From: a virus
DNA: 23,731 bases
IMG/VR virus record: IMGVR_UViG_3300013115_000341
Span: 1 to 23,731 of that record
Direction: 5' to 3' (one strand)
The notes under the pieces were generated by a model that worked only from the letters and a program-made list of their open reading frames with translations, was not told where the DNA came from and made no database searches. Within the stretch, counting starts at the first letter, position 1. Every line of letters starts with the position of its first letter. The position numbers and the translations under genes were made by a program. Below are positions 3,218 to 22,744 of this stretch, one piece after another.

Positions 3218-3384
3218 TGACTGCGCACGAGCGGAGAAGGTTGCTGGCCCGGCTACAAACCGTCAGCGATCCAGGAGGGCATGAGCGCTGCCGCCTGGGT
3301 CAGGGCTCAGTGCGGACTGTAGCAGGCGGTCTGTGCGCCGCGTGCGCGCTGCCGCTGCTGCGGTACGTGTCGCCGCCGACATAG
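3217..3384 (+). CDS. Possible small Cys-containing protein, third gene of module 2
   Basis: ATG 3217 overlaps the preceding stop, the same coupling used by most genes here, and opens a 55-codon frame ending at TAG 3382-3384. The product is basic, with a GGHERC motif and a later CAAC that could bind zinc. Against it, the last 85 nt lie opposite the 3' end of the minus-strand gene at 3300-3518, and the composition is unremarkable. It is offered as a candidate only. Confidence 0.4.
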   Translation: MTAHERRRLLARLQTVSDPGGHERCRLGQGSVRTVAGGLCAACALPLLRYVSPPT

Positions 3385-3518
3385 CAGGCTGATGTGCCGG
3401 CGATCCACATCGCCATCTGGCTCAGGTCTGCCGCTGCGTCAGGCCGCAGGATGATCCCGATTGCTAGGCCTGCCTCGAGGAAGAGGGTGGCATAGCTCAT
3501 TCTTTCGCGCTTGCTCAT
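3300..3518 (-). CDS. Small membrane protein of the lysis region
   Basis: The 72-residue protein starts at an ATGA overlap with the 36-residue gene upstream. A hydrophobic N-terminal half includes a likely membrane segment around YATLFLEAGLAIGIIL and a weaker one around MAMWIAGTSACYVGG, followed by a polar His/Arg/Ser tail. Its place just after the endolysin suggests a lysis accessory such as a holin or antiholin, but no family is recognised. The final part overlaps a possible plus-strand gene, and the Arg/His-rich tail may be partly a product of that overlap. Confidence 0.6.
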   Translation of the reverse strand: MSKRERMSYATLFLEAGLAIGIILRPDAAADLSQMAMWIAGTSACYVGGDTYRSSGSAHAAHRPPATVRTEP

Positions 3519-3625
3519 CGCCCTGGCCTCCAGCGTGCGGGCTCGATGGGATGGGAGCGCAGGATCAGCCAGCCCAGCAGGTTGCCGAGCTTGCCAGCGA
3601 GCCAGAGCAGGATCCGCTCGATCAT
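3515..3625 (-). CDS. 36-residue membrane peptide tiled between endolysin and 72-residue gene
   Basis: This gene is very short but well placed. Its ATG (3625-3623) overlaps the endolysin stop as ATGA and its stop (3517-3515) overlaps the next start as ATGA. The peptide has a charged MIER start, one hydrophobic helix through LLWLAGKLGNLLGWLIL, and a basic Pro/Arg tail. A single membrane helix with a basic C-terminus suits a small holin, an antiholin or a leader-like lysis peptide. Both flanking four-base overlaps support translation. The function is inferred only from position and hydrophobicity. Confidence 0.65.
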   Translation of the reverse strand: MIERILLWLAGKLGNLLGWLILRSHPIEPARWRPGR

Positions 3626-4020
3626 TCGATCAGCTCGAAATGTGGCGCATCGAAGAAGCGCTCAGTGAATCGGTGATCGCCGTTCCAATCGGCTCCCAGG
3701 CGGATCTTGATCCCCATCGTGGACGCTACGCCGAGCACGAATCCTGCGAAGTGGATGAAGCGCTTGTGGTCCTCCCAGTCAATCGGATACGGAGCGCAGT
3801 CCACAGCGCGAGACAGGGCGGGCGCTGTGGCGTTGTGCTTGCTGTTCGGCCACTTGACCTTACTGCGCCCGGTGCGGTGATACTCGTCCTGCGTGGCCTG
3901 GTCCCTGCGCCCTTCCAGGATCGTGCAATCCCAGTGCCTGATCACCTCCTCGAACAGGGCCTGGAGCTTTGGATCGCAGGTTTCCAGGCGGGCGCGCGAT
4001 CTAGCTGAGAAGCTGGGCAT
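3622..4020 (-). CDS. Endolysin, M15-type peptidase (L-Ala-D-Glu or D-Ala-D-Ala peptidase)
   Basis: This 132-residue protein covers a whole M15 domain. SKH with His62, AVD with Asp74 and PHF with His127 supply the expected zinc ligands, and Asp124 just before PHF is the probable catalytic acid. GADWNGDH (109-116) and APYP (76-79) match phage endolysins I recall. It should cleave the peptide stems of peptidoglycan and has no signal peptide, so it relies on a holin for release. The start overlaps the upstream stop (TGATG) behind a GGAGGG ribosome binding site. Holin candidates lie just upstream and small membrane genes just downstream, forming a lysis cassette. Confidence 0.85.
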   Translation of the reverse strand: MPSFSARSRARLETCDPKLQALFEEVIRHWDCTILEGRRDQATQDEYHRTGRSKVKWPNSKHNATAPALSRAVDCAPYPIDWEDHKRFIHFAGFVLGVASTMGIKIRLGADWNGDHRFTERFFDAPHFELIE

Positions 4021-4430
4021 CAGTCACCCTCCGCTGCGGTATCTGAGATCTCGCCCTTGATCACCAGGTTGTAGAGGTTGGCGCCGATGGAGCTCAGGAA
4101 GGCGCCAGCGATGATCAAGGCCACCGTCCACTTCCGCGTTGACCATTCTTTGGCGTGGACGGCTGCTGCATCTGCCTGCCGCTCGCGCTCTGCTTCGCGC
4201 ACTGCGCGCGCCTGCTCTGCCTCCTTGAGCGCCACGATCTCAGCCATGCCGGCGGTGACCGTCTCGGCCATGCGCTGATCGTCCTCGACATGGCCAGCAA
4301 ACTCGCCCGTGATCCGGTCCTGGGCGGCCTTGATCGACTCCACATCTAGCCGAACGCCCGTGAGTGTCTCGCTGACCAAGTCCTGTTTCGACTCCATCCG
4401 CGCCAGCGCTCGCATCACCTCATCGCTCAT
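4020..4430 (-). CDS. Coiled-coil protein with C-terminal membrane anchor, holin candidate
   Basis: The protein has 136 residues. About 1-95 are charged and helical, rich in Glu, Arg and Ala with heptad-like spacing. One membrane segment, WTVALIIAGAFLSSIGANLY (101-120), is followed by a short acidic tail. This layout recalls XhlA-type haemolysin enhancers and other tail-anchored lysis proteins. A strong site, GGAGG, lies just before ATG 4430, and its stop overlaps the endolysin start. It is probably the holin or its partner, sharing the job with the similar protein at 4432-4758. No family can be assigned with certainty. Confidence 0.7.
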   Translation of the reverse strand: MSDEVMRALARMESKQDLVSETLTGVRLDVESIKAAQDRITGEFAGHVEDDQRMAETVTAGMAEIVALKEAEQARAVREAERERQADAAAVHAKEWSTRKWTVALIIAGAFLSSIGANLYNLVIKGEISDTAAEGD

Positions 4431-4431
4431 C

Positions 4432-4758
4432 TCAGCCTCCTGCGCCTAGAACAGTCTGCGCCAGTTCGATCAGCCCGTATAGGATCGATCCGCTTGCGCC
4501 GCCTGCGATGATGGCGCCAGCCTTGCCGCTCTCGCCTCGCTCAGCGCGCTCCAATGCCTTGACGCGGTCCGCCAGCTTCTCGATCGACGCTGCCTGCCGC
4601 TTGATGTCCTGCTCCAACCAGCGCCGGCGCACATCACCGACTGCGCCGCCCTTGTCGAGCTTGGCCACATCGGCCGCAAGCCTATGGACAGCAGACAGCA
4701 GGTCTGCCAGGACACGATCGGGGATCTCATGCGCCAGAAACCCTCCTGATGTCTCCAA
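4432..4758 (-). CDS. Second coiled-coil plus membrane-anchor protein, holin or antiholin candidate
   Basis: This 108-residue protein has the same architecture as its downstream neighbour: a charged helical region (about 12-75) and a C-terminal Gly/Ala-rich hydrophobic segment (about 80-104) ending in GAGG. Paired genes of like design before an endolysin suggest a holin/antiholin pair. The annotated ATG lies 32 nt inside the receiver gene, an unusually long overlap here; an in-frame GTG further on is possible but lacks a clear ribosome binding site. The frame is supported by the spacing to ATG 4430. The function is inference. Confidence 0.65.
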   Translation of the reverse strand: METSGGFLAHEIPDRVLADLLSAVHRLAADVAKLDKGGAVGDVRRRWLEQDIKRQAASIEKLADRVKALERAERGESGKAGAIIAGGASGSILYGLIELAQTVLGAGG

Positions 4759-5158
4759 TCAGATCGTACGTTTCGCGGATCGGCCGATGCGCCTCGATCA
4801 CCTCCTCGATGCGATCGGTGAGTCCTGCGGCGAAGGTGCCATCACCGCCCTTGCTCAGCACCAGATAGGCGCCAAGGTGGCTCATCGCCAGCTGATCAGA
4901 CGCCTTGCGGGTTGCTGTCAGGACGATGATCGGAGCCCTGGTGCTATGGGCTGCCATCCGCTTGCAGGTCTCGTCGCCGTCGCTGTCTGGGAGGCGCAGA
5001 TCGAGCAGGATCAGATCGGCCCGATCTACATGAGGCAGAGCGCCCGCCAGCGTCTCAGAGCGGATCACCTCGTAGCCTGCGAGCTGGAGGCGCAATGTGG
5101 TGACGATGCCGACTTCAGGATCGTCCTCCACCAGTAGGATCGTCTTTGGCTGGCTCAT
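4727..5158 (-). CDS. Stand-alone CheY-like response-regulator receiver protein
   Basis: The 143-residue protein is a single receiver domain with no output domain. All signature residues are present: the acidic cluster Glu11-Asp12-Asp13, phosphoacceptor Asp53 in LILLDLRLPD, Thr81 in IIVLTA and Lys103 in LSKG. Histidine kinases or small phosphodonors phosphorylate such domains at the central Asp. It starts as an ATGA overlap with the tail gene and runs into the holin block, so it should be made late. Receiver genes are not a normal part of a phage tail or lysis operon. It may divert host two-component or chemotaxis signalling, or act as a phospho-sensitive lysis timer. The residues after 125 extend beyond a standard receiver. 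Confidence 0.9.
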   Translation of the reverse strand: MSQPKTILLVEDDPEVGIVTTLRLQLAGYEVIRSETLAGALPHVDRADLILLDLRLPDSDGDETCKRMAAHSTRAPIIVLTATRKASDQLAMSHLGAYLVLSKGGDGTFAAGLTDRIEEVIEAHRPIRETYDLIGDIRRVSGA

Positions 5159-6741
5159 GGATCAACCCGGAAGATCTCGTGTTCTTGAACTGTCAGCGAG
5201 AGGACGATCTTAGCCTCCTCGGTCCAGACGATTGAATCGATCAGGCACGGCACATCGGCCCAGGAGATCTCAGCATCAGTCACAGTCACCAGATCGCCAG
5301 GCTCGAGGTGTCCATACCTCGTATCGCAGTCGTAGGTGATCCGGCGGCGCTGGTGCGCATACCGCAGCGCAAGCCAGCTCAGGACGTTTTGAGCTGTGGA
5401 GTCATCTGAGATCACAGACGTTGTGATCGAGCGGCGCGAAACTCGATCGCTCCTGCTGCCCGCATATCGCTCAAACGACTCGCGGAGATATTGATTCATC
5501 GAGGCATCAGAGTCTGCTGCGGCTGACTCCGGATCTCCAGTCAGGACCGCGCGCCCGTCTTGCGCTCCTGCCAGCTCATCGCGGCGATAGAGGACCTCGA
5601 TCTCCTGATAGACCTTGTCCCGGCTGGTGTAGTTGATCGCGGAAGCTCGATCGCAATCGCCGCGCGCTGTGTTGAGATCCGCGGCCGCATCAGAGCGGCC
5701 TGCGTGATGCCTCCAGACGAGCGGATAGACGCCATCCGGCCCGGTTCGGATAGAGACCGGCAGGATCGGTAGAATGTGCTCTGAGAGCCAATCCCAGGCG
5801 CTGATCTGAGAGCCTGGCGACGCCTGGATGTACGCATCAATCAGATACTCGGACAGCAGGTCCCTGGCTGCCTGGGTCCTGCCGTAGTCAACGCGCAGAC
5901 CAGAGCGGGCCAGCAGGTATTCAATGGCATCGCCGGCCGTCCTCACGCCAGGCGCACCGAGGCCAGACCATCGCACAAAGATCGCATCACCAACAGTCAC
6001 AGCAAGCCCGTCTGCTGCGTCGTCAACGATCGTGACGTAGTTTCCTCGAGAGTCCGTGAAGGGCACTGTTGGCAGGCTCACTGTGTTGCCGTTCGCTTTG
6101 TTCTCCAGCGTCACGGATGCGCTGGCGATCTCGCCCTCAGCGATGAGATAGCGGTTCCCTGGAGTTGTGGACACGTGCAGCGCAACAGATCCGGCAAGCG
6201 ATCCGCCGCCAGGGCTGCCCAGGATAACCGGATACCGCTCACCATCTAGATCTTCATCCCGGTTGAGCCAGGTAGCAGCGCTCACGAACGAGAGCGGGCC
6301 AGGGATGGAGAGCCGATCTAGCCAGGGCGCCTCTTCCAGCGTCAGAACGATCGGCTCGTCGCTGTTGCCGTAGCTGGGATCGCGGATCTCGCCCTCGATC
6401 AGCGTCCGCGCAACCGTCTCACCATCGATCCACAGCAGCAGCCGCCCAGATGCAGATCCTAGATCGTGGCCTCTTGAAACCAGATCGGGAACGTCAGCCA
6501 GCTCTGACATGTGCAGCGTGACATCTGCTGACCGCTCCTCGAGGCCAACTGAGAACAGATCGATCGCCTCCTCAAAGGCTGGCGAGATCTCCAGGCCTCC
6601 TTCGTAGATCAGGGCCTCGCCGTCGATCGTCGCCTCGATCCGCTCCCTTGCGAGCCGGTAGACAGTGCCCGCCCAGTCCAGCTCAAACAGGAGATGGAAG
6701 GCACCAGCGTCGAGCCGGTCAGGCAGGAATGGCCGAGTCAT
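5155..6741 (-). CDS. Tail hub or baseplate-like protein
   Basis: The 528-residue protein is beta-rich with no membrane segment. The N-terminal 200 residues contain repeated strand motifs and acidic loops. The C-terminal third, with a conserved-looking GHLEPGDLVTVTDAEIS and WADVPCLIDS, resembles the last domain of tail-hub proteins of gpJ/gp27 type as I remember them. Its position after the tape measure and fibre genes suits a hub or tip protein that closes the tail tube and carries fibres. It is joined to the genes on both sides by ATGA overlaps. The tail role is likely; the exact class is not established. Confidence 0.6.
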   Translation of the reverse strand: MTRPFLPDRLDAGAFHLLFELDWAGTVYRLARERIEATIDGEALIYEGGLEISPAFEEAIDLFSVGLEERSADVTLHMSELADVPDLVSRGHDLGSASGRLLLWIDGETVARTLIEGEIRDPSYGNSDEPIVLTLEEAPWLDRLSIPGPLSFVSAATWLNRDEDLDGERYPVILGSPGGGSLAGSVALHVSTTPGNRYLIAEGEIASASVTLENKANGNTVSLPTVPFTDSRGNYVTIVDDAADGLAVTVGDAIFVRWSGLGAPGVRTAGDAIEYLLARSGLRVDYGRTQAARDLLSEYLIDAYIQASPGSQISAWDWLSEHILPILPVSIRTGPDGVYPLVWRHHAGRSDAAADLNTARGDCDRASAINYTSRDKVYQEIEVLYRRDELAGAQDGRAVLTGDPESAAADSDASMNQYLRESFERYAGSRSDRVSRRSITTSVISDDSTAQNVLSWLALRYAHQRRRITYDCDTRYGHLEPGDLVTVTDAEISWADVPCLIDSIVWTEEAKIVLSLTVQEHEIFRVDP

Positions 6742-9700
6742 ACGATCTCACGGAGCCTGATCGTGTTCAGGCGCTCCACCTCGCTCAGTCCCTCATCACC
6801 AACAACGTGGTCGGCTTGCGGATCTGTCTCGATCCGACCATAGACGAACTCGCGGCGATCGATCATCTGCTGCGATGTGCCGATCGACGTTGTGACCCTG
6901 GCCACATAAACAACGGGCGAGACCGGGCCATCGCTCTCAAGGATCACCCCTTCAACCAGGCGGATCGTGTCTGTTGTGCTGGCGATCGGGTTGCTGCTGC
7001 CGGTCACCCCTACCACGTAGTCTGGTGATGGATTCTTGGTCTGCGCTGTGGATGCGTCCACAGCGGTCTGAGCCCAGGAGATCTCAACCTCTCGCGCCGC
7101 CGGTCCCAGCTTGCGGACGCGAGTGCTGCCAGAGCGCCGCTGGAAGCTCTCTGTGTTGCTCGTTGTGATCCTGGTGAACCCGCGATCGTACTGATGACCG
7201 AAGGCGGCCAGATGCCCGATCAAGACATTGCCGATCTCAAAGTACCCGTCTGCTGTGGTCTGGCTTGGGATCCGCAAGCGGATCAGCGAGTAGTCGTCTG
7301 TGAAGTCGTGGACAATCACGCCGAAGCTGGTCCGCCAGACTGCGCCCGTTCCTGTTGCAGAGTTGGCCAGGGCGCCCGGCAGATTGTCTCGCGCCAGTGT
7401 GATCGTGGGCCGCTTTGTCGATCCGTCGTCCCAAGCGCCCTCTGTGTTGTGGCTGATCCGATGGTGCCGATCTGTTGCCTCGCCAGCGCCAAGATCGAAT
7501 GTGTCGCCAACGTGGAAGCCATACCAAAAATAGAGCGGGCCCTGGGTTGCTGTGCCTGTGTCCACTTGGACGCGCGATCCGCGGCGCCGATAGGCCAGCG
7601 AACTCCAGCCCGTTGACGCTGTGGCCGTTCCGATCGTCTGCCATGCAGCGCCGTCCCAGCCCTCAAGAACCGCCGTCTCGAAATTCGCGCCCATGATCAC
7701 AACCGCGATCGAATGATTGCGCATCGCACTGTTGCCAAAGTCGCCAGCCTCCAGATCCCAAACGAGATGGGCAGCCGTGGCGGTGCCCTTGCTGCGCCAG
7801 GTTCTCGACGGGCTCGAGGCGCGCCGCCAATCGATCGCGCTGATCGGATGATCGTACGCCGTCGCAATGGTCCACAGATCGCCGTTGTAGCCTGGCCCGT
7901 CCTTGGCCCTGATCCGAACGCCATCAACCACGCCGGTAGGCTCAGGCGTCCATGTGCGCGCGTGGAGATAGTCGGGATTGCTCCACTCAGACGCCAGCGG
8001 CCCAACCTGGATCCCGTGCCACTTTGAGGGACAATAGGTATAGCCAACCATCTCCCAGCGTGATTCAGCGGTCCCCGTCTGATGGCCCCAAGATACCGAG
8101 CTTGGGCCGCCGCCTGCGCCAAACGTCAGTGATGTGGCAGTGCGGCCCTGGGTCCACGATCGGACATGCCCAGAGCGGGCGTGCCACAGCATCGCGTTGC
8201 CCTCGATGTCCAGCGCGCCGCGGATCCTGCCCATCGTCGTCAGATCGAAGGCGACTTCTGCGCCGATGTCTGCGCCTGCCTGCGAGTCGTGGAGCCTGTA
8301 ACCCGTCGAGGATAGGCGGACCTCGATGCTGTAGAGCAGCACAGCGCCGCTCAGCGAGATCTTAAACGCGATCTCATCGGTTGCCGTGTCACCGTCGCCG
8401 CTGTCAATCTCCACAGCGAACTCAAAAAAGGCAGCAGTGACACCCGTATCGGCAAGGCTGCGGCTGAAGTCCCGCCGCTGAGCCGCTGTTGAGATCGCAA
8501 GCTGCGCCGATGTGTTGATCGCGGAAGAGCCAAGGCCAAGGACGGGCCAGTCCACATTGTCAGGCACGTCGGCGGGCAAGTACAGACCGCCGAGACGGGA
8601 CAGACCATCACCCCAGCCGACGAAGTCTAGATCACGATCTCGCAGATTCACGCTGCCATTGACCAGCGGCGCAGTATGCGACGAATAGCCGCCCATCCAG
8701 ATGACCGCCACCGACTTGTCGGCGTAGGAGTCCTGGCTGGTGAAGCGAGTTATCAACGCGGTCCTGCCCGCGGTCTCTGCCGCTGCCCATCGCTCAAAGC
8801 GGTTCGTGAACGTGTTGCCAGAGTGCAATGAGAAGGCCTCGTTTACCTGGGTCCAGCCTTGCCAGCTCTTGCCGCCGTCGATCGATCGATGCGGCCTGCC
8901 GATCGATCCTGTCCCGTTCTTCGTGGTCAGCGCATAGATCTCCGGCCCGCCCTCGCCTCGCCATGCGACCACATCGTCAGGGACGCCTGTGTCTGTGCTG
9001 ATGCCGACTCGCGAGAACGAGAGGATCTGTGTCAACGCGGATCCAATGGTCCTCGAAAACGCATCTGCAACGCCTGCCGGGATCCTGGCCACATAGACAA
9101 CGACAAACCCGCCGCCCATCAGCCCAAGGACGTTGATCGAGACGGGCTCCTCTGTTGGGTCAATCCACTCAGCAAGCACCAGCTCAAAGGTCGCGCCGAG
9201 GTCCGTTGATGCGAACTGTGCAGCAGCATCGCCCGCGGGATCGACGTAACCCAGCATCAGTAGGATCTGCCCGTTGCTGTAATCCCAGCGGATGTCGTTG
9301 ATCACGATGGCATCAGTACCGCCTGAGTCCGTGAGCGCCTCCTCCAGCACGCGAAAGCCAGCGGCCGCCCACGTGTCGCCTTCGTCATCGGTGTAGTACA
9401 CGTCGATCTGGTTTGAATCGTTGCTGACCAGCGCGCACAAGACCCGCTCGCTGGGAAGCTCGAGCAGTGCCGCCGCTGTGCTCACATAGGTTGATCCCGC
9501 GTTCTTCGGCGTGAGGTTCGCCGCGGTCCAGAGCCCATCCGCAGGATCGAAGCGCTCGATCCGAACCACGCCAAGCACGGTAGACGAGACGGTTGATAGC
9601 AGGCGTCCAGAGCTGAGCCTGATCACATCTGGCCGAAGGTCCGCGCCTTGCGGTGATGTGGTCCACAAGAGCGGCTCCCAGCCGGTCACGATCTGCGGAC

Positions 9701-10013
9701 CATCCCATCCCTTGACCTGGCTGGACGAATCGCCAGCAGCAACATCACGCCAGACGAAGCCGCCCTCATTGGCGCCAGGGCCACCAGCGCGATGACATAC
9801 GATCTCAAGCTCGCCATCTGCGCCTTGGCTGCCGCTGGCCTCGAGGACCAGATCGGTGTCTGTGGTGATCGTTGGGATCCCAGCGCGCGGCCCTGCCTGC
9901 GTGTATGCGCTGTCCGTCGTACCTGCGCCAATCGCGGCCAGCGTCTCATGCTTGATCTGCGGATCTGGGACGATGAAACCCTGGACTCGATCTGTGTCTT
10001 TGACCGTGCCCAT
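6738..10013 (-). CDS. Large tail fibre or receptor-binding protein with Asp-box repeats
   Basis: The protein has 1091 residues. Three Asp-box motifs, TDDEGDTW (208-215), STDLGATF (269-276) and SIDGGKSW (377-384), indicate a sialidase-like beta-propeller over roughly residues 110-450. The region beyond is Trp- and Gly-rich with repeated beta-sandwich-like stretches typical of glycan-binding domains. The last 200 residues may attach to the tail tip. The Asp boxes are structural and do not prove sialidase activity; the catalytic Arg triad and Tyr cannot be assigned by eye. It follows the tape measure stop directly (TAG then ATG). It is probably the main host-recognition protein binding surface polysaccharide. 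Confidence 0.75.
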   Translation of the reverse strand: MGTVKDTDRVQGFIVPDPQIKHETLAAIGAGTTDSAYTQAGPRAGIPTITTDTDLVLEASGSQGADGELEIVCHRAGGPGANEGGFVWRDVAAGDSSSQVKGWDGPQIVTGWEPLLWTTSPQGADLRPDVIRLSSGRLLSTVSSTVLGVVRIERFDPADGLWTAANLTPKNAGSTYVSTAAALLELPSERVLCALVSNDSNQIDVYYTDDEGDTWAAAGFRVLEEALTDSGGTDAIVINDIRWDYSNGQILLMLGYVDPAGDAAAQFASTDLGATFELVLAEWIDPTEEPVSINVLGLMGGGFVVVYVARIPAGVADAFSRTIGSALTQILSFSRVGISTDTGVPDDVVAWRGEGGPEIYALTTKNGTGSIGRPHRSIDGGKSWQGWTQVNEAFSLHSGNTFTNRFERWAAAETAGRTALITRFTSQDSYADKSVAVIWMGGYSSHTAPLVNGSVNLRDRDLDFVGWGDGLSRLGGLYLPADVPDNVDWPVLGLGSSAINTSAQLAISTAAQRRDFSRSLADTGVTAAFFEFAVEIDSGDGDTATDEIAFKISLSGAVLLYSIEVRLSSTGYRLHDSQAGADIGAEVAFDLTTMGRIRGALDIEGNAMLWHARSGHVRSWTQGRTATSLTFGAGGGPSSVSWGHQTGTAESRWEMVGYTYCPSKWHGIQVGPLASEWSNPDYLHARTWTPEPTGVVDGVRIRAKDGPGYNGDLWTIATAYDHPISAIDWRRASSPSRTWRSKGTATAAHLVWDLEAGDFGNSAMRNHSIAVVIMGANFETAVLEGWDGAAWQTIGTATASTGWSSLAYRRRGSRVQVDTGTATQGPLYFWYGFHVGDTFDLGAGEATDRHHRISHNTEGAWDDGSTKRPTITLARDNLPGALANSATGTGAVWRTSFGVIVHDFTDDYSLIRLRIPSQTTADGYFEIGNVLIGHLAAFGHQYDRGFTRITTSNTESFQRRSGSTRVRKLGPAAREVEISWAQTAVDASTAQTKNPSPDYVVGVTGSSNPIASTTDTIRLVEGVILESDGPVSPVVYVARVTTSIGTSQQMIDRREFVYGRIETDPQADHVVGDEGLSEVERLNTIRLREIV

Positions 10014-12054
<2,041 letters not shown>

Positions 12055-12062
<8 letters not shown>

Positions 12063-12836
12063 GGCCGCCGCCGAAGAAGAAGCTCACGTCTTCCGGTTTG
12101 TTGTCGCTCGACTTCAGGATCCTAGACATCACGCGATTTGTGGCCTCTCTGGCTGCGGCGCCGATCTTGTGCTTGCCGCTCCAGATCGCCTGAAGGAGCT
12201 GTCTGCCGCCCAGCGTGAGCGGTTGGACCAGGCAAAAGCGGCCCTCGAATCGGATATCAGTCACTAGCGCATGATACGCCAACACATCGAGCTGCCTTCC
12301 TTTGTCGAGGGAGTAAAATGCCTGAGGATCCCCCCCCAACAGATGCAGGCCAGCGTCGATCGCGACTAGCTGACTGCGTCCGCTGGGGCTGCGGAGAAAC
12401 CCACTCGATCCTCTACCTCCTCCCTGGTGACCCTGACGCCGCCCATCTGCTTGACCACGCCAGAAAGAAGCTGAGATTGCTGTTCTATGCTGTAGCCCTC
12501 GGCGTGTAACTCCTTGATCACTGCGCCGCCCAGCGCCATGAACGATCCATGATCTGCGGCCGATGACTCCAGATCGATCGTCCGATGGTGCCAGCAGGCA
12601 CCGATCGCAGCGCCGCCAACGCGCCATTGCTTGGCGGTCATCGCGTAGACAGCGCCCGCGCCATCGTCAGCAGACAGCGCGGTCACTCCGCTGTCTGCCA
12701 TCTCGGCAAAGAACTCAGCGGCAGTCACTGGATCCATCGAGCTGAAGACGTGCTCACCCTTGCCGTCAACGTCCACAGCGAAGAGCGGAGGCAAGACAGG
12801 GTCGGGCAGCTTGCGCTTCTTCTTTCGTCTGATCAT
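12055..12836 (-). CDS. Tail assembly chaperone GT, made by -1 ribosomal frameshift
   Basis: Residues 1-147 are shared with the short product. After the slip at GGGTTTC (12402-12396), translation continues from CTC at 12396 in the -1 frame to TGA 12057-12055, adding 113 residues for a 260-residue fusion. The extension reads LRSPSGRSQLVAIDAGLHLL and onward and ends FFFGGGHG. The -1 frame stays open from upstream of the slip to the tape measure start. This is the arrangement of lambda gpG/gpGT, where both products chaperone the tape measure during tail assembly. A run of eight G (12337-12330, minus sense) in the extension could be a further slip point. Confidence 0.85.
12366..12836 (-). CDS. Tail assembly chaperone G, unshifted product
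   Basis: The 156-residue protein starts at an ATGA overlap with the 74-residue gene. A strongly basic N-terminus (MIRRKKKRK) precedes a helical domain, and the C-terminus ends GFSAAPADAVS before TAG. The gene sits between the tail tube gene and the tape measure, the place expected for the lambda gpG equivalent. The unshifted form is expected to be in excess over the fusion. Family similarity cannot be confirmed because G proteins diverge widely; the call rests on position, size and the frameshift signal. Confidence 0.8.
   Translation of the reverse strand: MIRRKKKRKLPDPVLPPLFAVDVDGKGEHVFSSMDPVTAAEFFAEMADSGVTALSADDGAGAVYAMTAKQWRVGGAAIGACWHHRTIDLESSAADHGSFMALGGAVIKELHAEGYSIEQQSQLLSGVVKQMGGVRVTREEVEDRVGFSAAPADAVS
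12396..12402 (-). promoter_or_regulatory. Programmed -1 frameshift slippery heptamer G GGT TTC
   Basis: In the G frame the codons are GTG GGT TTC, placing an X-XXY-YYZ heptamer in the exact phase needed for -1 slippage, so GGT TTC re-pairs as GGG TTT. Nine bases later CCAGCG can pair with a CGCTGG 27 nt further on, enclosing an inner GTCG/CGAC hairpin, a possible stimulator. The stop of G lies ten codons past the slip. Confidence 0.8.
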
Positions 12837-13057
12837 TCTTTCGCCTTCTTCTTCGGCAGTGCCGAGTAGTCAGGATCGGGCACGCCAGAGAGCGCCATCT
12901 CCAACGCCTCCAGCGCCTTGCCTGCGGCCTTGAAGCGCCCTTGGTAGTCGCGCCTTGGTTTGTTGCTGGGAGGGATGCTGGGGCCACCGTGGGCCGCCAC
13001 ATCGGCAACCGCAGCGGCCAGCGCATCCTTGAGCGCTGCTAGTGGCTTCTCGAGCAT
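12833..13057 (-). CDS. Small helical protein between tail tube and chaperone genes
   Basis: The protein has 74 residues, with an Ala/Leu-rich helix at 1-25, a Pro-rich and basic middle (PSNKPRRDYQGRF) and a lysine-rich end (PKKKAKE). It starts within the stop region of the tail tube gene and ends in an ATGA overlap with G, so the tiling supports it. I recognise no family. A small tail-assembly factor or an added chaperone partner is possible by position. A larger overlapping frame at 12766-13026 is rejected as a shadow. Confidence 0.7.
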   Translation of the reverse strand: MLEKPLAALKDALAAAVADVAAHGGPSIPPSNKPRRDYQGRFKAAGKALEALEMALSGVPDPDYSALPKKKAKE

Positions 13058-13557
13058 TAGGTGATCACGCTGGGCTTGTTCACGTAGCTGGTGAAGTTCA
13101 CCGTGAGCGTACTGGGATCGCCCTCTGCCATGGATCCGCGGACGGAGCAGTAGGGGAACGTGAGCACGTGGTCAGACGCATCTCCGTGATCAGTGCCCTC
13201 GATCGTCCATGTCAGCGAGAGTGTGAACACCTCGCCATTGGCGCCCATCGTGGAGACCCATGTGCTTCCAACCTCGCCCGACTGGAGCAAGATCTCCTCG
13301 ACCGTGGCGTAGGCCGCATCAGCGATGTCCCGCAGGTAGCAGGTGAAACTGCCGGTGATCGGCGCATCGTCCGAATATCGGATCGAAGGCGGATCGGTGT
13401 GCCGGCCGCGGTCAAGAAACTCCTGCACTCCTTCCATTGGCGCATCAAAGCTGAAGTCACCAGCCTCGAAAGCGACGGTGAGCGTATTGGCCCCCGCGTT
13501 GTCCGCGAATAGCAGCGTGCCGTCTCGCTTTGTTTTGACGATCGTTGAGTAGGGCAT
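13057..13557 (-). CDS. Major tail tube protein
   Basis: The protein has 166 residues, beta-rich, with alternating hydrophobic strands, Gly/Asp turns and stretches such as GSFTCYLRD and LTFPYCSVRG. Size, composition and position before the G/GT chaperone and tape measure match siphovirus tail tube proteins, which polymerise as hexameric rings around the tape measure. The ribosome binding site GGAGGTAGAG precedes ATG 13557 closely. No sheath gene accompanies it, which argues for a non-contractile tail. The family call rests on gene order and general character. Confidence 0.75.
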   Translation of the reverse strand: MPYSTIVKTKRDGTLLFADNAGANTLTVAFEAGDFSFDAPMEGVQEFLDRGRHTDPPSIRYSDDAPITGSFTCYLRDIADAAYATVEEILLQSGEVGSTWVSTMGANGEVFTLSLTWTIEGTDHGDASDHVLTFPYCSVRGSMAEGDPSTLTVNFTSYVNKPSVIT

Positions 13558-13559
13558 CT

Positions 13560-14093
13560 CTACCTCCTTCGGCTGCGGGCTCTAGCCCTGCCGTCTGGTT
13601 CTACTGAGAAGCGCTCGCGCAGTCTTTCGCGCGCGCCTCGTTGCTGGAAAAGTCGTGCTGTAGTCGCAAACAGAGCTGCCGCCCTGGCGCGCCCGATTGG
13701 ATCCGGCGCTCTGCTTGGGCGGCGAAAAATGTCGCGCTGCCTGGGCACCATCGCCAGAAGGCGCCGCAGCTCAGCCACTGCGACGGTGACAAGCTCCGCG
13801 GCCTTGGCCTCGAGGAAGTCAGCGATCGGCGTCTGCGACGAGTCGCCAGCCTGGAAGACGAAGCTCACATATTCGACGGGATTGCGAAAGATCAAGATCA
13901 TTCCGTCGATCACGATCTCCCAGGCTGCGCGGCTGGTGCCTGTGTCCTCAGGCCAGATGTTGATCACCTCCTTTGTGATGTCGAGGCGCAGACCGCGCAA
14001 GATCCGCTCTGCGTCTGGCGCCAGTGAGCCGAAGTCCCGCAGCGTTGCCCCAACGCGCAAGCCCAGATCTTGGCTGAAGTCAACGCTAGGCAT
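13560..14093 (-). CDS. Head-tail or tail completion protein, Arg-rich C-terminus
   Basis: ATG 14093 is preferred to an upstream TTG at 14120: it has a GGAAG site before it and overlaps the previous stop by only 8 nt. The 177-residue product has an alpha/beta N-terminal region including EDTGTSRAAWEI, a pattern I associate with HK97 gp10-like tail-completion proteins, and a long basic C-terminus ending RARARSRRR. The basic tail is unusual for this class and might contact DNA or RNA. Gene order between completion protein and tail tube supports a neck role. Confidence 0.6.
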   Translation of the reverse strand: MPSVDFSQDLGLRVGATLRDFGSLAPDAERILRGLRLDITKEVINIWPEDTGTSRAAWEIVIDGMILIFRNPVEYVSFVFQAGDSSQTPIADFLEAKAAELVTVAVAELRRLLAMVPRQRDIFRRPSRAPDPIGRARAAALFATTARLFQQRGARERLRERFSVEPDGRARARSRRR

Positions 14094-14511
14094 TGAACTG
14101 CGCTTCCACGAATCGCTCAACTGCGATCGTCAGCTCGTCAACCATTCGCAACTCAAAGGCAGCGAGCGCATCGGCCTCATACAGGCCATCATGGACCTCG
14201 GATGCATAGCTCTCTTCATCCCTGAGATAGTCTGCGATCTGCGGCTGCCCGCCCGACTCTCTGACGCCGCCTTGACCAGGCGCGAGCCTGTATGGTGGCG
14301 CATCGTTCACAAACGAGACATTGAGGCCGCTGTGGTCAACGCGGGCGCTCAGGGCCAGGGTGCCCGTTAGGCGCGGAGTGAATGTGTTGGGCTGCGGTCC
14401 TGTGAGATCCTGGCTCAGCAAGATCGCCTGCTCGCCCATCAGGTCTTCGATGTCGCGGGAGATGTTTGCGCCGAATCTGCCAAATAGCGCGATGGCTTCG
14501 CCTGGGCTCAT
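14086..14511 (-). CDS. Neck or tail completion protein
   Basis: The protein has 141 residues, with an N-terminal helical stretch around GRFGANISRDIEDLMGEQA, a PRLTGTLALSARVDHS segment with the look of HK97 gp10-like proteins, and an acidic helical end. Its start forms an ATGA overlap with the preceding gene. Two consecutive gp10-like candidates (this and 13560-14093) may reflect a duplication or simply two neck components. Function inferred from order. Confidence 0.55.
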   Translation of the reverse strand: MSPGEAIALFGRFGANISRDIEDLMGEQAILLSQDLTGPQPNTFTPRLTGTLALSARVDHSGLNVSFVNDAPPYRLAPGQGGVRESGGQPQIADYLRDEESYASEVHDGLYEADALAAFELRMVDELTIAVERFVEAQFNA

Positions 14512-14951
14512 GGCGCTGCCACTGTTGCGATGGACCAGGACACCTCAACGGTAAATGTCACGTCAGTGAAGAGCCACTCACGCGGAGGGTTCAGGGTGCG
14601 CGCGGTCTTCACATAGTTGATTGAGCAAGTGTTGAGCGGAGACGCGATCGTGTTCATCACCTCAACGACTACGTTCTGTCCGTCCTGATAAGCGGCGCGC
14701 TGTGTCTCTGTCTGATTCACTGGATCAAGCAGATGGGCGATCCGGTAGATCACATCATGCAGCTGGCGGATCGTGGTCTCTCTGCGGTCTCGGTTCTTCG
14801 TGCTGTTGCGGGTCTGGATGTCCAGCGTGAAAGCGCGATGGAGCGCAGGCATGGGCGTTGACTTCACATCGAGCAAGATCGGGGACTCATGCAAGCCAGC
14901 ATCAACGCCTTCTGCCACCAGCGCCTCAAAGATGTCGTTGTGCTCAGCCAT
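14508..14951 (-). CDS. Tail terminator-like protein
   Basis: The protein has 147 residues. A central helix (QLHDVIYRIAHLLDP) is followed by VVVEVMN, a TLNPPREWLFTDV segment and a final strand VTFTVEVSW, resembling phage tail-terminator proteins that cap the tail tube and join it to the head. The gene lies between the connector candidate and the completion proteins, where terminators are usual. TGATG overlap with the gene before and ATGA with the gene after. The family is assigned by pattern and place. Confidence 0.55.
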   Translation of the reverse strand: MAEHNDIFEALVAEGVDAGLHESPILLDVKSTPMPALHRAFTLDIQTRNSTKNRDRRETTIRQLHDVIYRIAHLLDPVNQTETQRAAYQDGQNVVVEVMNTIASPLNTCSINYVKTARTLNPPREWLFTDVTFTVEVSWSIATVAAP

Positions 14952-15715
14952 CAGATCCGTCTGCCGCGCCCAGTGCCGCCCAGATAGATCACGGATGCAG
15001 CGCTCTGGCCCTGTTCGTCCTCGCTGATGTCGTTGTCTTCGGAGTCATCGTAGACAAGCTTCATCTGAGACCAGCCGGCCGCATAGGCCATCCTGTAGTG
15101 GTCTGCCAGGGCCGCATACTTGCCGCGCGCGCCGCCTGCTGAGCTGCTGAAGTCGCGGAAGATCCGCTCAAGCGTGAGCTGGATGTGGACCTCGCGCAGG
15201 CTCCACGAACTCATGATCAGCACGGGCCGGCGCCCGTCCTCGAGAAGGCGGATCTGAATGGTGTCCCAGGCGTCGTCAAGGTAGTCCTGATAACTGGTCC
15301 TCGAGGCCGCAGTGAGCCACTGCGTCAACTCGGTGTGTCTGCTGATCAGATCGTCGTCTGAGATCACCGGATAGAGCAGGCGCAAGACCAGCTGCGCATC
15401 GCGCCAAAATGTATAGACCTGGCCTGCGATCGTCAGGGTCCAACGCTCCTGCCAAGTGTCGTCGAGCGGCTTGGTAATGGGTAAGGACGCTGCGGCGATG
15501 TCATGGGTGGCGACACCTGCGACAACCACCACAGCGGCCTCGTCAACGAGGGGAGTCCCGTTGATCCCAGCATCGTCAAACACGCTGATCGTCCCGCTCG
15601 TCACGGCCTGGAGAGCGCCGTCTCGGTAGACCGGCAGGCTCAGTGTGTTGTCTGCGTCGCGCTGGATGAAGTCTGGGCGCTTGATCCGCGGCGCAAGCTG
15701 GGAAAGAACCGCCAT
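14951..15715 (-). CDS. Head-tail connector or adaptor candidate
   Basis: The 254-residue protein has a beta-rich first third, including FDDAGINGTPLVDEAAVVVV, then a helical part (SDDDLISRHTELTQWL and YLDDAWDTIQIRLLEDGRRP). Helical bundles of this kind occur in gp6/gp15-like adaptors that sit beneath the portal. The acidic stretch DDSEDNDISEDE near the C-terminus precedes a short basic end. Position between the head block and tail terminator fits. The first part may be an added domain, so a neck decoration role is an alternative. Confidence 0.5.
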   Translation of the reverse strand: MAVLSQLAPRIKRPDFIQRDADNTLSLPVYRDGALQAVTSGTISVFDDAGINGTPLVDEAAVVVVAGVATHDIAAASLPITKPLDDTWQERWTLTIAGQVYTFWRDAQLVLRLLYPVISDDDLISRHTELTQWLTAASRTSYQDYLDDAWDTIQIRLLEDGRRPVLIMSSWSLREVHIQLTLERIFRDFSSSAGGARGKYAALADHYRMAYAAGWSQMKLVYDDSEDNDISEDEQGQSAASVIYLGGTGRGRRI

Positions 15716-19608: not shown

Positions 19609-20511
19609 TCAGACTCCGCTGTTCAACTCAACGCCGCGGGCGTTCTCCTGAATCGCGGCGCCGAAATAATCATGGCCAACAACCGAGCTGAGAGCCTGGC
19701 GCGCAGTGCGCTCAGCCTCCACAAAGATGCTCGAGCCGGTTGGGATCGGAATGGAGCCAGCGGCCTCCTGGGCGGATGCAGTGGCATAGGCAAGGGCGCC
19801 CGGTCCATACATCGCGCCGCTGAAGTCCGTGGTGTCATCTGTGACGCTGTCCACCGAGTGAAAGTCCAGCCCGTTCCAACTGCCCGCAAAGCCCTGGCCC
19901 TTGGCCGAAAGCATTGCGCCAGTGGCCGGCAGGAACTGCACAGCGCCGCCCTCATTCCGCAGATCGTCTTGGATCTGCGTCAGCTGCTTGGGCTTGAGCG
20001 CTGCCACGATCCCAGCGGCGCTGTTGAGCGCGATGGTCAGCGCAAACTGCGCTTCGTAGATGTCGTCAACAGTCAAGACCGCGCCGCTGGTGCCCTTCGC
20101 AGTGGTGAAGGAGGGAAACAGGGCCGCAATGATGTCCGTGCGCCGGAAGCTCGCAGCATCTACGACCATGGCGACAAGGCGAGGCAGATCGACGCCTGCG
20201 ATCCCAAGGATCCCAGCGAAGTCAGACTTTTCAAAAGCGATCGTCTGGCGAGCGACGGCGATCGTGTAGGACCGCTTGGCAACCGCCTGATTGACGGCCG
20301 CCACGTTTTCGCCCGCAGCCACCATCGCGTTATTTCGCTGGAATGCTGGAGTCTTGATCGTGTCGCTGCCCGATCCGCTCAGATCACCGATCTGCGTTGC
20401 GGTCATCAGGAGATCAGCGCGATCAACCAGGTCCTCATGGACCAGCCGGTTAAGGATCTCGTCAAGACCGGCATCGGCCTTGAACCCTGCAAAAGTTACC
20501 TCATCAGCCAT
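19609..20511 (-). CDS. Major capsid protein
   Basis: The 300-residue protein matches HK97-fold capsid proteins in size and character: a helical N-terminal arm, a long central stretch of alternating strand and helix (SYTIAVARQTIAFEKSDFAG and onwards), a mid-section helix, and a Gly/Ala-rich C-terminal domain. There is no obvious N-terminal protease-type extension, in keeping with a separate scaffold gene upstream. It has its own ribosome binding site and two alternative hairpins before the ATG, and a strong hairpin after the stop, as expected for the most highly expressed gene. The family is assigned by order and pattern. Confidence 0.8.
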   Translation of the reverse strand: MADEVTFAGFKADAGLDEILNRLVHEDLVDRADLLMTATQIGDLSGSGSDTIKTPAFQRNNAMVAAGENVAAVNQAVAKRSYTIAVARQTIAFEKSDFAGILGIAGVDLPRLVAMVVDAASFRRTDIIAALFPSFTTAKGTSGAVLTVDDIYEAQFALTIALNSAAGIVAALKPKQLTQIQDDLRNEGGAVQFLPATGAMLSAKGQGFAGSWNGLDFHSVDSVTDDTTDFSGAMYGPGALAYATASAQEAAGSIPIPTGSSIFVEAERTARQALSSVVGHDYFGAAIQENARGVELNSGV

Positions 20512-20633: not shown

Positions 20634-21251
20634 TTATCTCTGTGGCCTGGGCTTCAGCCCGTAGCGCTCGCGAGTGCTCGCCCAATTGGCCTGATCCATG
20701 TCTCGGAACTTGCCGCGAGTGTGCGGCTGGTCTGGTCCTGGGCTGACCTTTGCGCCGACGTTCGGGGCGCCGTTTGTGGGCTTGGGAGCGACAGGATCTG
20801 GCGCCGCCTGCTCTGCGCCGTTGCTGGCCTCAGATGGCGCCTGCTGCTGTGGAGCGATGGCGCGCACGATGGGCAGCTGAGATCCTGTGCTCGCGTACCA
20901 GTCAGCGAACTCGCCAGGCTTCTCAGCTTTGCCGTACTTCGCCATCACGACGGCCGCCACGTCTTCGTCGTAGCTCGAGCCCAGCGAGCCCAGCAAGATC
21001 CGCTCTCTGCTCCATGTGGTCTTCGCGCCGTCGTGCTCAGCCTGTAGCGCTGCCAGCTTCTCGCCTGCGTCCTGGCCCGCCTCCCATTGCGCCTTCCAAC
21101 CGTTGGCCTGCTTCTCGAGCTGCGCGAACTCTGCGGCCTTGTCGTTGATCTGCTTTTGCAGCGCGTTTCGCTGTTCGCGTACTTCCGCGGTCCGCTCCTT
21201 GATCAGCTTATCAACCTGCGCCTGCGTGAATGTTGCCGGGCCGTCGCTCAT
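20634..21251 (-). CDS. Capsid scaffold protein
   Basis: The protein has 205 residues. Residues 8-85 are a charged helix with coiled-coil character (KLIKERTAEVREQRNALQKQ and onwards). The second half is Gln/Pro/Ala-rich and looks disordered, ending with a short basic tail (RERYGLKPRPQR), often the capsid-binding part. Position between portal and capsid is diagnostic of scaffold genes. It overlaps the portal stop as ATGA and ends with TAA 122 nt before the capsid gene. Similarity search would be weak for such low-complexity proteins, so order carries the call. Confidence 0.75.
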   Translation of the reverse strand: MSDGPATFTQAQVDKLIKERTAEVREQRNALQKQINDKAAEFAQLEKQANGWKAQWEAGQDAGEKLAALQAEHDGAKTTWSRERILLGSLGSSYDEDVAAVVMAKYGKAEKPGEFADWYASTGSQLPIVRAIAPQQQAPSEASNGAEQAAPDPVAPKPTNGAPNVGAKVSPGPDQPHTRGKFRDMDQANWASTRERYGLKPRPQR

Positions 21252-22744
21252 GGTCCTGCTCCTCGGTTGCCAAACTCTGCGTTCTCCTGGCGGATCTCCC
21301 TGAGCCGATCCTTGCCCTGGTCCCTGGTCCAGCCGATGTTGGCCGCCAGCACCAGATCAACGGGCGACGCGATCCCCAACTCAATGTCGGCCATCGCTTG
21401 CTTGGTGCGCGTCTCGACTTCCACTGGCGAAAGAGGGAGGCCGCGATAGGTGATCGACCATCCAGTCTCTGGAAGCCCGGCGCCTTCGTGAACATTGAGC
21501 AAGCTGGCCGCCAGAGCAAGCAACACTTCGTCCTGCTGGCGGAAGTTGGGCTCCATCTCCTGTTGCTTCTCTCGGACGCTTGAGCGCTTCAGAGCGATGG
21601 CCCATCCCGATTGGGCTGAGCCGTTCCGCTGGGTGTCATCGGTCTCGAGGCCGGCGTCCATCAGGATCGATCGCTCATATTCGCGGATCGCCAGCTGGGT
21701 CCGCTCAGGATCTGCGCCTGCGTCCCATTGTCCAGTCTGGATCCCTCCTGTGCTGGTGCTCCTGAGCATCAGCAAAGACGCCGCGTTGACGTGGACCTCC
21801 TTGCGCTTGCCGCCGCCTGTCCCGCGGTCCTCTGTGCCGTCAACCACGGCATCAGCTGCCCAGCGGATGGGATGCGCGCAGTCCCGCATCAGAAAACCAA
21901 GGTGCGTGTAGTAGACGCCAACCCTGAGCGTTCCTGCCATCAGCTCAGAGTTTCGCCAGCCGTCCCACAGTCTTCCGGTTCGGTGCGCGTGATACAGCAG
22001 ATAAGGCAGGACTGGCACGCCTTCGATCCGCCATGGGAACGCCTCGCCATCGAACTCGCCGCCCAATACCTCTTCGGTGATGTCTGTTGGCGCCTTTGAG
22101 GAGTTGGGATCATCGGGAGGCAGCATCACCCTGTATGTCGGATTCTCAGCATCGCTGATGTCCACCACATCCCAGGTCCATCGATCGCTGGCCTCGCCGC
22201 CGCGGGCGATGCTGCGGACCCTGGCCTCTGTGACTCGGATCGGCAGGTCTGGGCTCTGCGGGTCTGCCTCGATGAAGACCAGATCAGCAGGCACAGACCG
22301 AACCTGAAGCCGTCCTCGAGGGAGGACATAGTCAACGCGCATCAGACCCTCGCGGATCCCCCAAGTGCTGCGCTGGTTGCTCTGCGCCATCTGCCATACA
22401 CCAGCGGCATCGAGCCGGCTGGCAAAGCTCTCAACGGCCTGCTCGTTGCTGTCCTCCGCTGAGATCAGCGGGATCCGGTGATACTGGACGCTGATCTCTG
22501 TGGCCGTGCGGCCCAGGACGTTCTTGGACAGATCGATCGTCCCGTCCAGCATCTGCGCGGTTTCTTCTGGGAAGAAGTCATCAACCGCCTTCCGCAGATC
22601 GCCCTCCCACTGGCCGGACAGAATGCGGCGACCCTTCGCAGCATGCGCGCGCCGATCGCGCTCCTCTGCATCGCCAGGGAGCGGCGGAGTCTTCGTCAGG
22701 GTCTGCACTCGGCAAGGATACGCGGAAGCGCTTGCAATGCGCAA
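21248..22744 (-). CDS. Portal protein
   Basis: The 498-residue protein has the alpha/beta mix and length of siphovirus portals: a helical N-terminal wing (EERDRRAHAAKGRRILSGQW), a strand-rich middle, a Trp/Gly-rich stem region (HRTGRLWDGWRNSELMAG) and a helical C-terminal crown with NFRQQDEVLLALAASLLNV. It forms the dodecameric DNA gate of the head. The start is uncertain: TTG 22744 is the longest, while GTG 22708 begins VQTLTKTPPLPG. Neither has a strong ribosome binding site. Terminase normally precedes portal, but here plus-strand modules do, so terminase must lie beyond the window. Confidence 0.8.
   Translation of the reverse strand: MRIASASAYPCRVQTLTKTPPLPGDAEERDRRAHAAKGRRILSGQWEGDLRKAVDDFFPEETAQMLDGTIDLSKNVLGRTATEISVQYHRIPLISAEDSNEQAVESFASRLDAAGVWQMAQSNQRSTWGIREGLMRVDYVLPRGRLQVRSVPADLVFIEADPQSPDLPIRVTEARVRSIARGGEASDRWTWDVVDISDAENPTYRVMLPPDDPNSSKAPTDITEEVLGGEFDGEAFPWRIEGVPVLPYLLYHAHRTGRLWDGWRNSELMAGTLRVGVYYTHLGFLMRDCAHPIRWAADAVVDGTEDRGTGGGKRKEVHVNAASLLMLRSTSTGGIQTGQWDAGADPERTQLAIREYERSILMDAGLETDDTQRNGSAQSGWAIALKRSSVREKQQEMEPNFRQQDEVLLALAASLLNVHEGAGLPETGWSITYRGLPLSPVEVETRTKQAMADIELGIASPVDLVLAANIGWTRDQGKDRLREIRQENAEFGNRGAGP

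Follow-up and report, generated by a model that had tools for sequence, protein, structure and literature searches.

A stand-alone CheY-like receiver and a small membrane coiled-coil protein as a candidate lysis-regulator module in the late genes of a siphovirus-like phage

What would a phage gain from a two-component receiver encoded among its late tail and lysis genes? We considered this question for a gene at 4727-5158 on the minus strand of IMG/VR record IMGVR_UViG_3300013115_000341, of which the whole stretch of 23,731 bases was analysed (the window). The minus strand carries the late genes in a siphovirus-like layout. At the head end lie a 498-aa protein (21248-22744) and a 300-aa protein (19609-20511), presumed from size and order only to be portal and capsid, with a weak head-scaffold match at 20634-21251; these are followed by a tape-measure protein identified by family match (10014-12062), a large fibre-like protein (6738-10013) and, immediately upstream of the receiver, a tail protein of the Phage-tail_3 family (5155-6741; PF13550, 31.8 bits in Pfam). 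Downstream come a 108-aa coiled-coil protein with one C-terminal hydrophobic or transmembrane (TM) segment, judged from its ORF, hydropathy and charge to be a partner candidate (4432-4758), a 136-aa coiled-coil protein with a C-terminal TM segment (4020-4430; 89% identical to its copy in a sister phage) and, as the third gene after the receiver, an endolysin of the L-Ala-D-Glu/M15-type peptidase family (3622-4020; phrog_465 endolysin, E 9e-34; 47% identity to a Variovorax phage homologue). Further along the same strand are a 72-aa small membrane protein without family match that is a holin candidate by hydropathy (3300-3518), a 123-aa protein with an N-terminal hydrophobic region and a charged helix that is a candidate holin or inner-membrane spanin (2160-2531; weak phrog_175 holin match, E 0.0045), and a 137-aa lipoprotein-like protein with a signal and an LTGC motif, a candidate outer-membrane spanin by sequence and hydropathy (876-1289). 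No promoter or terminator matches were found around the receiver locus. The GC content of the window is 62%, and GATC is very frequent (350 occurrences in 23.7 kb), yet near its trinucleotide expectation (327).

The receiver gene begins with ATG and encodes 143 aa, of which residues 7-104 match PF00072 (Response_reg) in Pfam at 58.5 bits against a cut-off of 30.2 (E 8.9e-16), and this is the one receiver domain in the whole record. An earlier note, made from the sequence, had described a complete CheY-like receiver with all phosphorylation residues intact and no output domain, and both statements held: D12, D13, D53, T81 and K103 are present as placed, no second Pfam family exceeded its cut-off, and residues 108-140 were modelled as one long helix of 33 residues. 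The AlphaFold2 model, built on an 11-sequence alignment, has the receiver-type alternating order of strands and helices (pLDDT 83, pTM 0.77) and matched receivers in Foldseek (E 3e-10) with the OmpR class ranked first; by sequence, too, the OmpR class is nearer than CheY. At K-3, where an aromatic switch residue (Tyr or Phe) would be expected, the protein has V100, and the usual Lys-Pro is replaced by Lys-Gly (K103-G104). An aromatic switch residue and Lys-Pro are common in single-domain response regulators without being universal or defining, so a receiver that lacks them is still a member of the family. Forty residues follow K103; of five phage receivers measured, four have 43-49 at this place and that of phage XX1924 has 34, and CheY or Spo0F has about 20 residues beyond the conserved Lys.

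The start of the receiver gene overlaps the stop of the tail gene as ATGA (5155-5158), and the gene has no convincing Shine-Dalgarno sequence to itself, an arrangement that fits the translational coupling to the tail gene proposed earlier. Expression together with the late tail and lysis genes is likewise supported. The codon-position GC of the gene (0.67/0.45/0.73) is like that of its neighbours, indicating a real gene.

At its 3' end the receiver gene shares 32 bases with the 108-aa ORF. The overlap with a "holin candidate" claimed in the earlier note was therefore borne out as an overlap, while the holin label lost ground: the 108-aa protein has a single, moderate C-terminal hydrophobic segment (mean KD 1.51) and a weak match to phrog_937 "hemolysin" (XhlA-type; E 0.023). 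It resembles XhlA-type lysis proteins in being a small coiled coil with a single C-terminal TM segment beside lysis genes and differs from them in the weakness of that match, whereas the receiver-neighbouring protein of Alteromonas phage PB15 is a clear member of phrog_937 (E 1.8e-16). Compared within a set of eight, the two proteins are 30% identical across 53 aa (E 5.6e-6). The sole full-length start of the 108-aa gene is a TTG at 4758, with no in-frame ATG or GTG near the start. A Shine-Dalgarno-like AGGAGGG at 4741-4747 (minus strand), inside the 3' end of the receiver gene and near the start of the 108-aa gene body, presumably serves the 108-aa gene, and an out-of-frame ATG follows it at 4730; either the start codon is uncertain or there is an assembly error at this point.

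The closest relative spanning the locus, IMGVR_UViG_3300024518_002964, has 86% nucleotide identity over the structural genes and the same gene order. Both the receiver and the 108-aa gene are absent from its locus, and no receiver was found elsewhere in its record. The blastn alignment breaks at window positions 4453 and 5177, which correspond to sister positions 9568 and 9565 with only two bases between them. The break (window 4454-5176) thus spans exactly the two genes, indicating one indel of both and marking the pair as accessory, and the sister phage shows that the pair is not essential. Three other relatives overlap only the right part of the window. IMG/VR contigs from other samples match that part (L020 and L021 at 99%, L022 at 81%), indicating that the phage or its close kin is present in several samples. 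On the strand opposite its late genes, the sister contig also carries what read as two DNA methyltransferase-like genes and a RusA-like gene (12160-15058).

The earlier note had suggested looking for the gene at the same position in close relatives, with absence to be taken as a sign of chance insertion, and the sole relative covering the locus indeed lacks it. Searches for kin of the receiver itself were also negative. Exact short-peptide scans of IMG/VR, which miss divergent receivers, returned no close relatives; tblastn against INPHARED gave none at E 1e-3, and what appeared at E 10 looked like contamination or chance; and a donor search of 150 Pseudomonadota and 39 Cyanobacteria genomes gave none at E 1e-15 except a known RpaB. 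The absence from the sister phage and the lack of close relatives in IMG/VR, INPHARED and the sampled Pseudomonadota at these thresholds would suit a recent, neutral or decaying capture of a host receiver at a permissive site, with no selected role. This we consider very unlikely, given that the phospho-site residues are all intact, the codon pattern is like that of the neighbours, the coupling at the start is clean and, above all, the arrangement recurs in other phages, which weakens the chance-insertion reading.

Among the matches listed, at least nine named phages of Alteromonas, belonging to several unrelated groups, have a stand-alone receiver in the tail-lysis region (V22, A5, V19, PB15, XX1924, R9Y1, R9Y2, R8W and H4/4). 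V22 and A5 came from the literature, and INPHARED searches with their receivers, covering the best 40 to 60 of 264, 182 and 189 records, added the others and R9Y3. In every Alteromonas phage record opened, the receiver lies at the lysis genes, and its neighbours are endolysin, holin or spanin genes together with a small TM coiled-coil protein. In A5 the next gene, which is spanin-like, overlaps that of the receiver, and a holin-like gene and then the endolysin come after it. Spanin-like and holin-like genes follow the receiver in V22, an order repeated in a V22-like IMG/VR contig; the spanin-like and holin-like labels in these two phages are our reading of the sequences. PB15 has the order XhlA-like gene, receiver, M15 peptidase, holin-like gene. 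The XX1924 receiver stands one to three genes away from lysis genes, as do those of the other phages described here and that of the window. In R9Y1 and R9Y2, a TM coiled-coil gene precedes the receiver and a lysozyme follows directly, as in the R9Y-like IMG/VR contigs opened. R8W and H4/4 have the order holin, TM coiled coil, receiver, TM protein, terminases. In V19 the receiver adjoins a holin-like gene and a gene that we take to be DUF5675-like. A rough, post hoc estimate, counting slots within two genes, put the chance odds of lysis-side placement at about 7e-6 for six lineages and 9e-4 for the four least favourable only. Several other viral receivers are present in BFVD, and viral receivers outside lysis regions may exist. 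The named hosts of the phages with lysis-region receivers are all Alteromonas; the window phage, at 62% GC, probably infects another organism.

Part of this recurrence is already on record. The available text of two papers places CheY-like genes in the tail modules of V22 (gp30) and A5 (gp11), naming them only as "CheY-like AMG" (PMC7289586, PMC10579305), and the earlier note, in knowing of no standard late-gene role for such a protein, had overlooked these published genes. No description of a lysis link for CheY-like phage genes was found in the open-access literature, as far as its text was available. Could the gene instead be an auxiliary of the host-recognition or tail module, with no part in lysis, encoding a protein-protein adaptor or a chaperone that helps tails or fibres to assemble? 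The "class II AMG" view in the literature amounts to one form of this idea, which agrees with the direct coupling of the window receiver to a tail gene and with the V22 and A5 receivers, which travel with the tail fibre module according to the available text of one paper (PMC10579305). However, in R8W and H4/4 the receiver is placed past the holin and beside the terminase, and the receivers of R9Y and PB15 abut the endolysin, so that we regard an auxiliary tail role as distinctly unlikely.

The receivers of V22 and A5 resemble that of the window in several ways: they are about 145 aa long, their site is intact, a long C-terminal tail follows the conserved Lys, their genes lie late in the tail-lysis region, a TM coiled-coil gene is adjacent, and a neighbouring gene overlaps by about 32-35 bases. 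They differ in sequence (22-24% identity to the window receiver over the alignment) and in the partner, which is upstream with an N-terminal TM segment, whereas the window 108-aa gene is downstream and its TM segment C-terminal. R9Y1-3, R8W and H4/4 share with the window a stand-alone receiver, ATGA-type coupling, a TM coiled-coil neighbour and a nearby lysozyme or holin, but their receivers are about 25-29% identical to that of the window and the TM coiled coil precedes them. These receivers are annotated as hypothetical or "DNA-binding response regulator/PhoB"; R8W gp48 has been read as PhoB (PMC8228385), and Pfam found no DNA-binding domain in it.

A small one-TM, coiled-coil-like protein thus adjoins the receiver in the window and in each Alteromonas phage case. 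By the charge rule, the coil lies on the K/R-rich, predicted cytosolic side of the single TM segment in all ten proteins examined, and the 108-aa and 136-aa proteins of the window each have one TM segment with the coil on that predicted side. The TM segment is N-terminal in some neighbours and C-terminal in others, indicating that they are not all one family, while related neighbours occur within lineages (R9Y1 with R8W, A5 with V22, and the window 108-aa protein weakly with PB15). In a search of 50,697 phage records that admitted E values up to 1, the R9Y1 neighbour matched only R9Y1-3, R8W and H4/4, all of them receiver-carrying phages; in R8W and H4/4 the match is weak (E 0.02-0.05), covers the C-terminal half and falls on the gene directly before the receiver. 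The R9Y1/R8W-type pair is thus common to a siphovirus and Autographiviridae phages, a sign that its two genes may move as a unit.

As to the origin of the window receiver, it clustered with bacterial OmpR/RpaB-type receivers and not with those of Alteromonas phages (support 94/97, long branch) in a tree whose bacterial panel was picked by shared peptides; if this placement is right, receivers were recruited to lysis cassettes repeatedly. The highest similarity is to this class, the RpaB receiver of a Prochlorococcus contig being 46-48% identical over about 100 aa. In contrast to OmpR and RpaB, the 143-aa window protein lacks the C-terminal winged-helix DNA-binding domain, indicating that it is not a transcription factor. 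With CheY, Spo0F, DivK and RR468 it shares the receiver fold, the five conserved site residues and the absence of an output domain, and it differs from them in being phage-encoded within a lysis operon, in its extra C-terminal helix and in lacking the aromatic switch residue.

Several other leads were set aside. The Prochlorococcus match does not point to a cyanobacterial host, as the gene matched is of the RpaB type, with two domains, and its peptide LQLAGYEVI had been used to seed the scan. A C-terminal motif (Y..IG.[IV]R) apparently common to the window, A5 and PB15 was dropped, its spacing from the conserved Lys differing and its basis being one alignment. Many INPHARED receivers, such as those in records named Listeria phage LM 4-11-1 and Acinetobacter phage MD-2021a and in faecal scaffolds labelled Bacteriophage sp., were taken for bacterial DNA, such contaminant records being excluded mostly on record type; two Pseudomonas records with receivers that were opened had bacterial-type contexts. 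The receiver of Stenotrophomonas phage Bhz63 has an output domain and a kinase-like gene beside it and is therefore not stand-alone; there (L034:3989-5535), a PhoP-like regulator gene is followed by a PRK11100 (sensor kinase-like) gene, apparently a complete two-component pair. Finally, the "receiver domain" of the N4 lysis paper is its authors' term for part of the pinholin.

An intact phospho-acceptor site with no output domain would also suit a decoy or phosphate sink that intercepts phosphoryl groups from host histidine kinases late in infection, for example envelope-stress or chemotaxis kinases, and thereby blocks the stress response to lysis proteins or alters motility, with the place in the lysis operon setting the timing only. 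The nearest sequence types are of the OmpR/RpaB class, which pair with membrane kinases, and PIT4 of Pseudomonas phage LSL4 offers a precedent for interference with host kinases (PMC10714779). PIT4, however, is an early protein and the window receiver gene is late, the degenerate switch residues suggest specialised output contacts, and a decoy leaves unexplained the co-inherited membrane coiled-coil partner. It leaves unexplained, too, the receiver-like protein of V19 (L038:3998-4450), a pseudo-receiver that has lost the phospho-Asp and scores just below the PF00072 cut-off (29.9 bits). We therefore consider a decoy unlikely.

The reading we favour, tentatively and at somewhat less than an even chance, is that the receiver and the adjacent small coiled-coil membrane protein form a two-gene accessory lysis-regulator module. 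It takes up what was observed, namely the late-operon position, the coupling to the tail gene, the intact site, the single indel that holds both genes and the repeated occurrence beside a membrane partner, and the recurrence of the same arrangement in unrelated phages makes a functional link to lysis more likely than before. In such a module the receiver would be cytosolic and bind the cytosolic coiled coil of its membrane partner, and the pair would set the time or readiness of lysis, acting in either an antiholin-like or a holin-promoting manner. Host histidine kinases or small donors of the acetyl phosphate type could phosphorylate the receiver and so tune lysis to the state of the host. 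A stronger form, in which phages repeatedly recruited receivers together with a membrane coiled-coil protein dedicated to them, as a lysis switch that responds to phosphorylation and is timed by host two-component signals or acetyl phosphate, seems doubtful to us. The loss of the phospho-Asp in V19 means that phosphorylation cannot be needed there and argues against strict phospho-gating; the V19 pseudo-receiver still has its TM coiled-coil neighbour, which suggests that, in at least one phage, the central function may be binding and not phosphorylation. Other observations count against the module as a whole. Small TM coiled-coil proteins also occur in lysis regions without a receiver, as with the 136-aa homologue in IMGVR_UViG_3300024518_002964; the window partner is downstream of the receiver, not upstream; and neither the aromatic switch residue nor Lys-Pro is present in the window receiver. 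Accessory genes in general are common at tail-lysis junctions, so the position of the receiver may reflect tolerance rather than function.

The timing of phage lysis is held to depend mainly on holins and antiholins, the known signal-responsive cases being lysis inhibition in T4 and N4. If the proposed module is real, it would provide a direct route by which host physiological signals enter the lysis decision, and would give a function to marine phage genes now annotated as CheY-like AMG, PhoB or hypothetical. The idea is testable in phages already cultured, namely R8W, R9Y1, A5 and V22. The receiver/partner pairs found in lysis blocks suggest that phages may tune the timing of host burst with such a pair.
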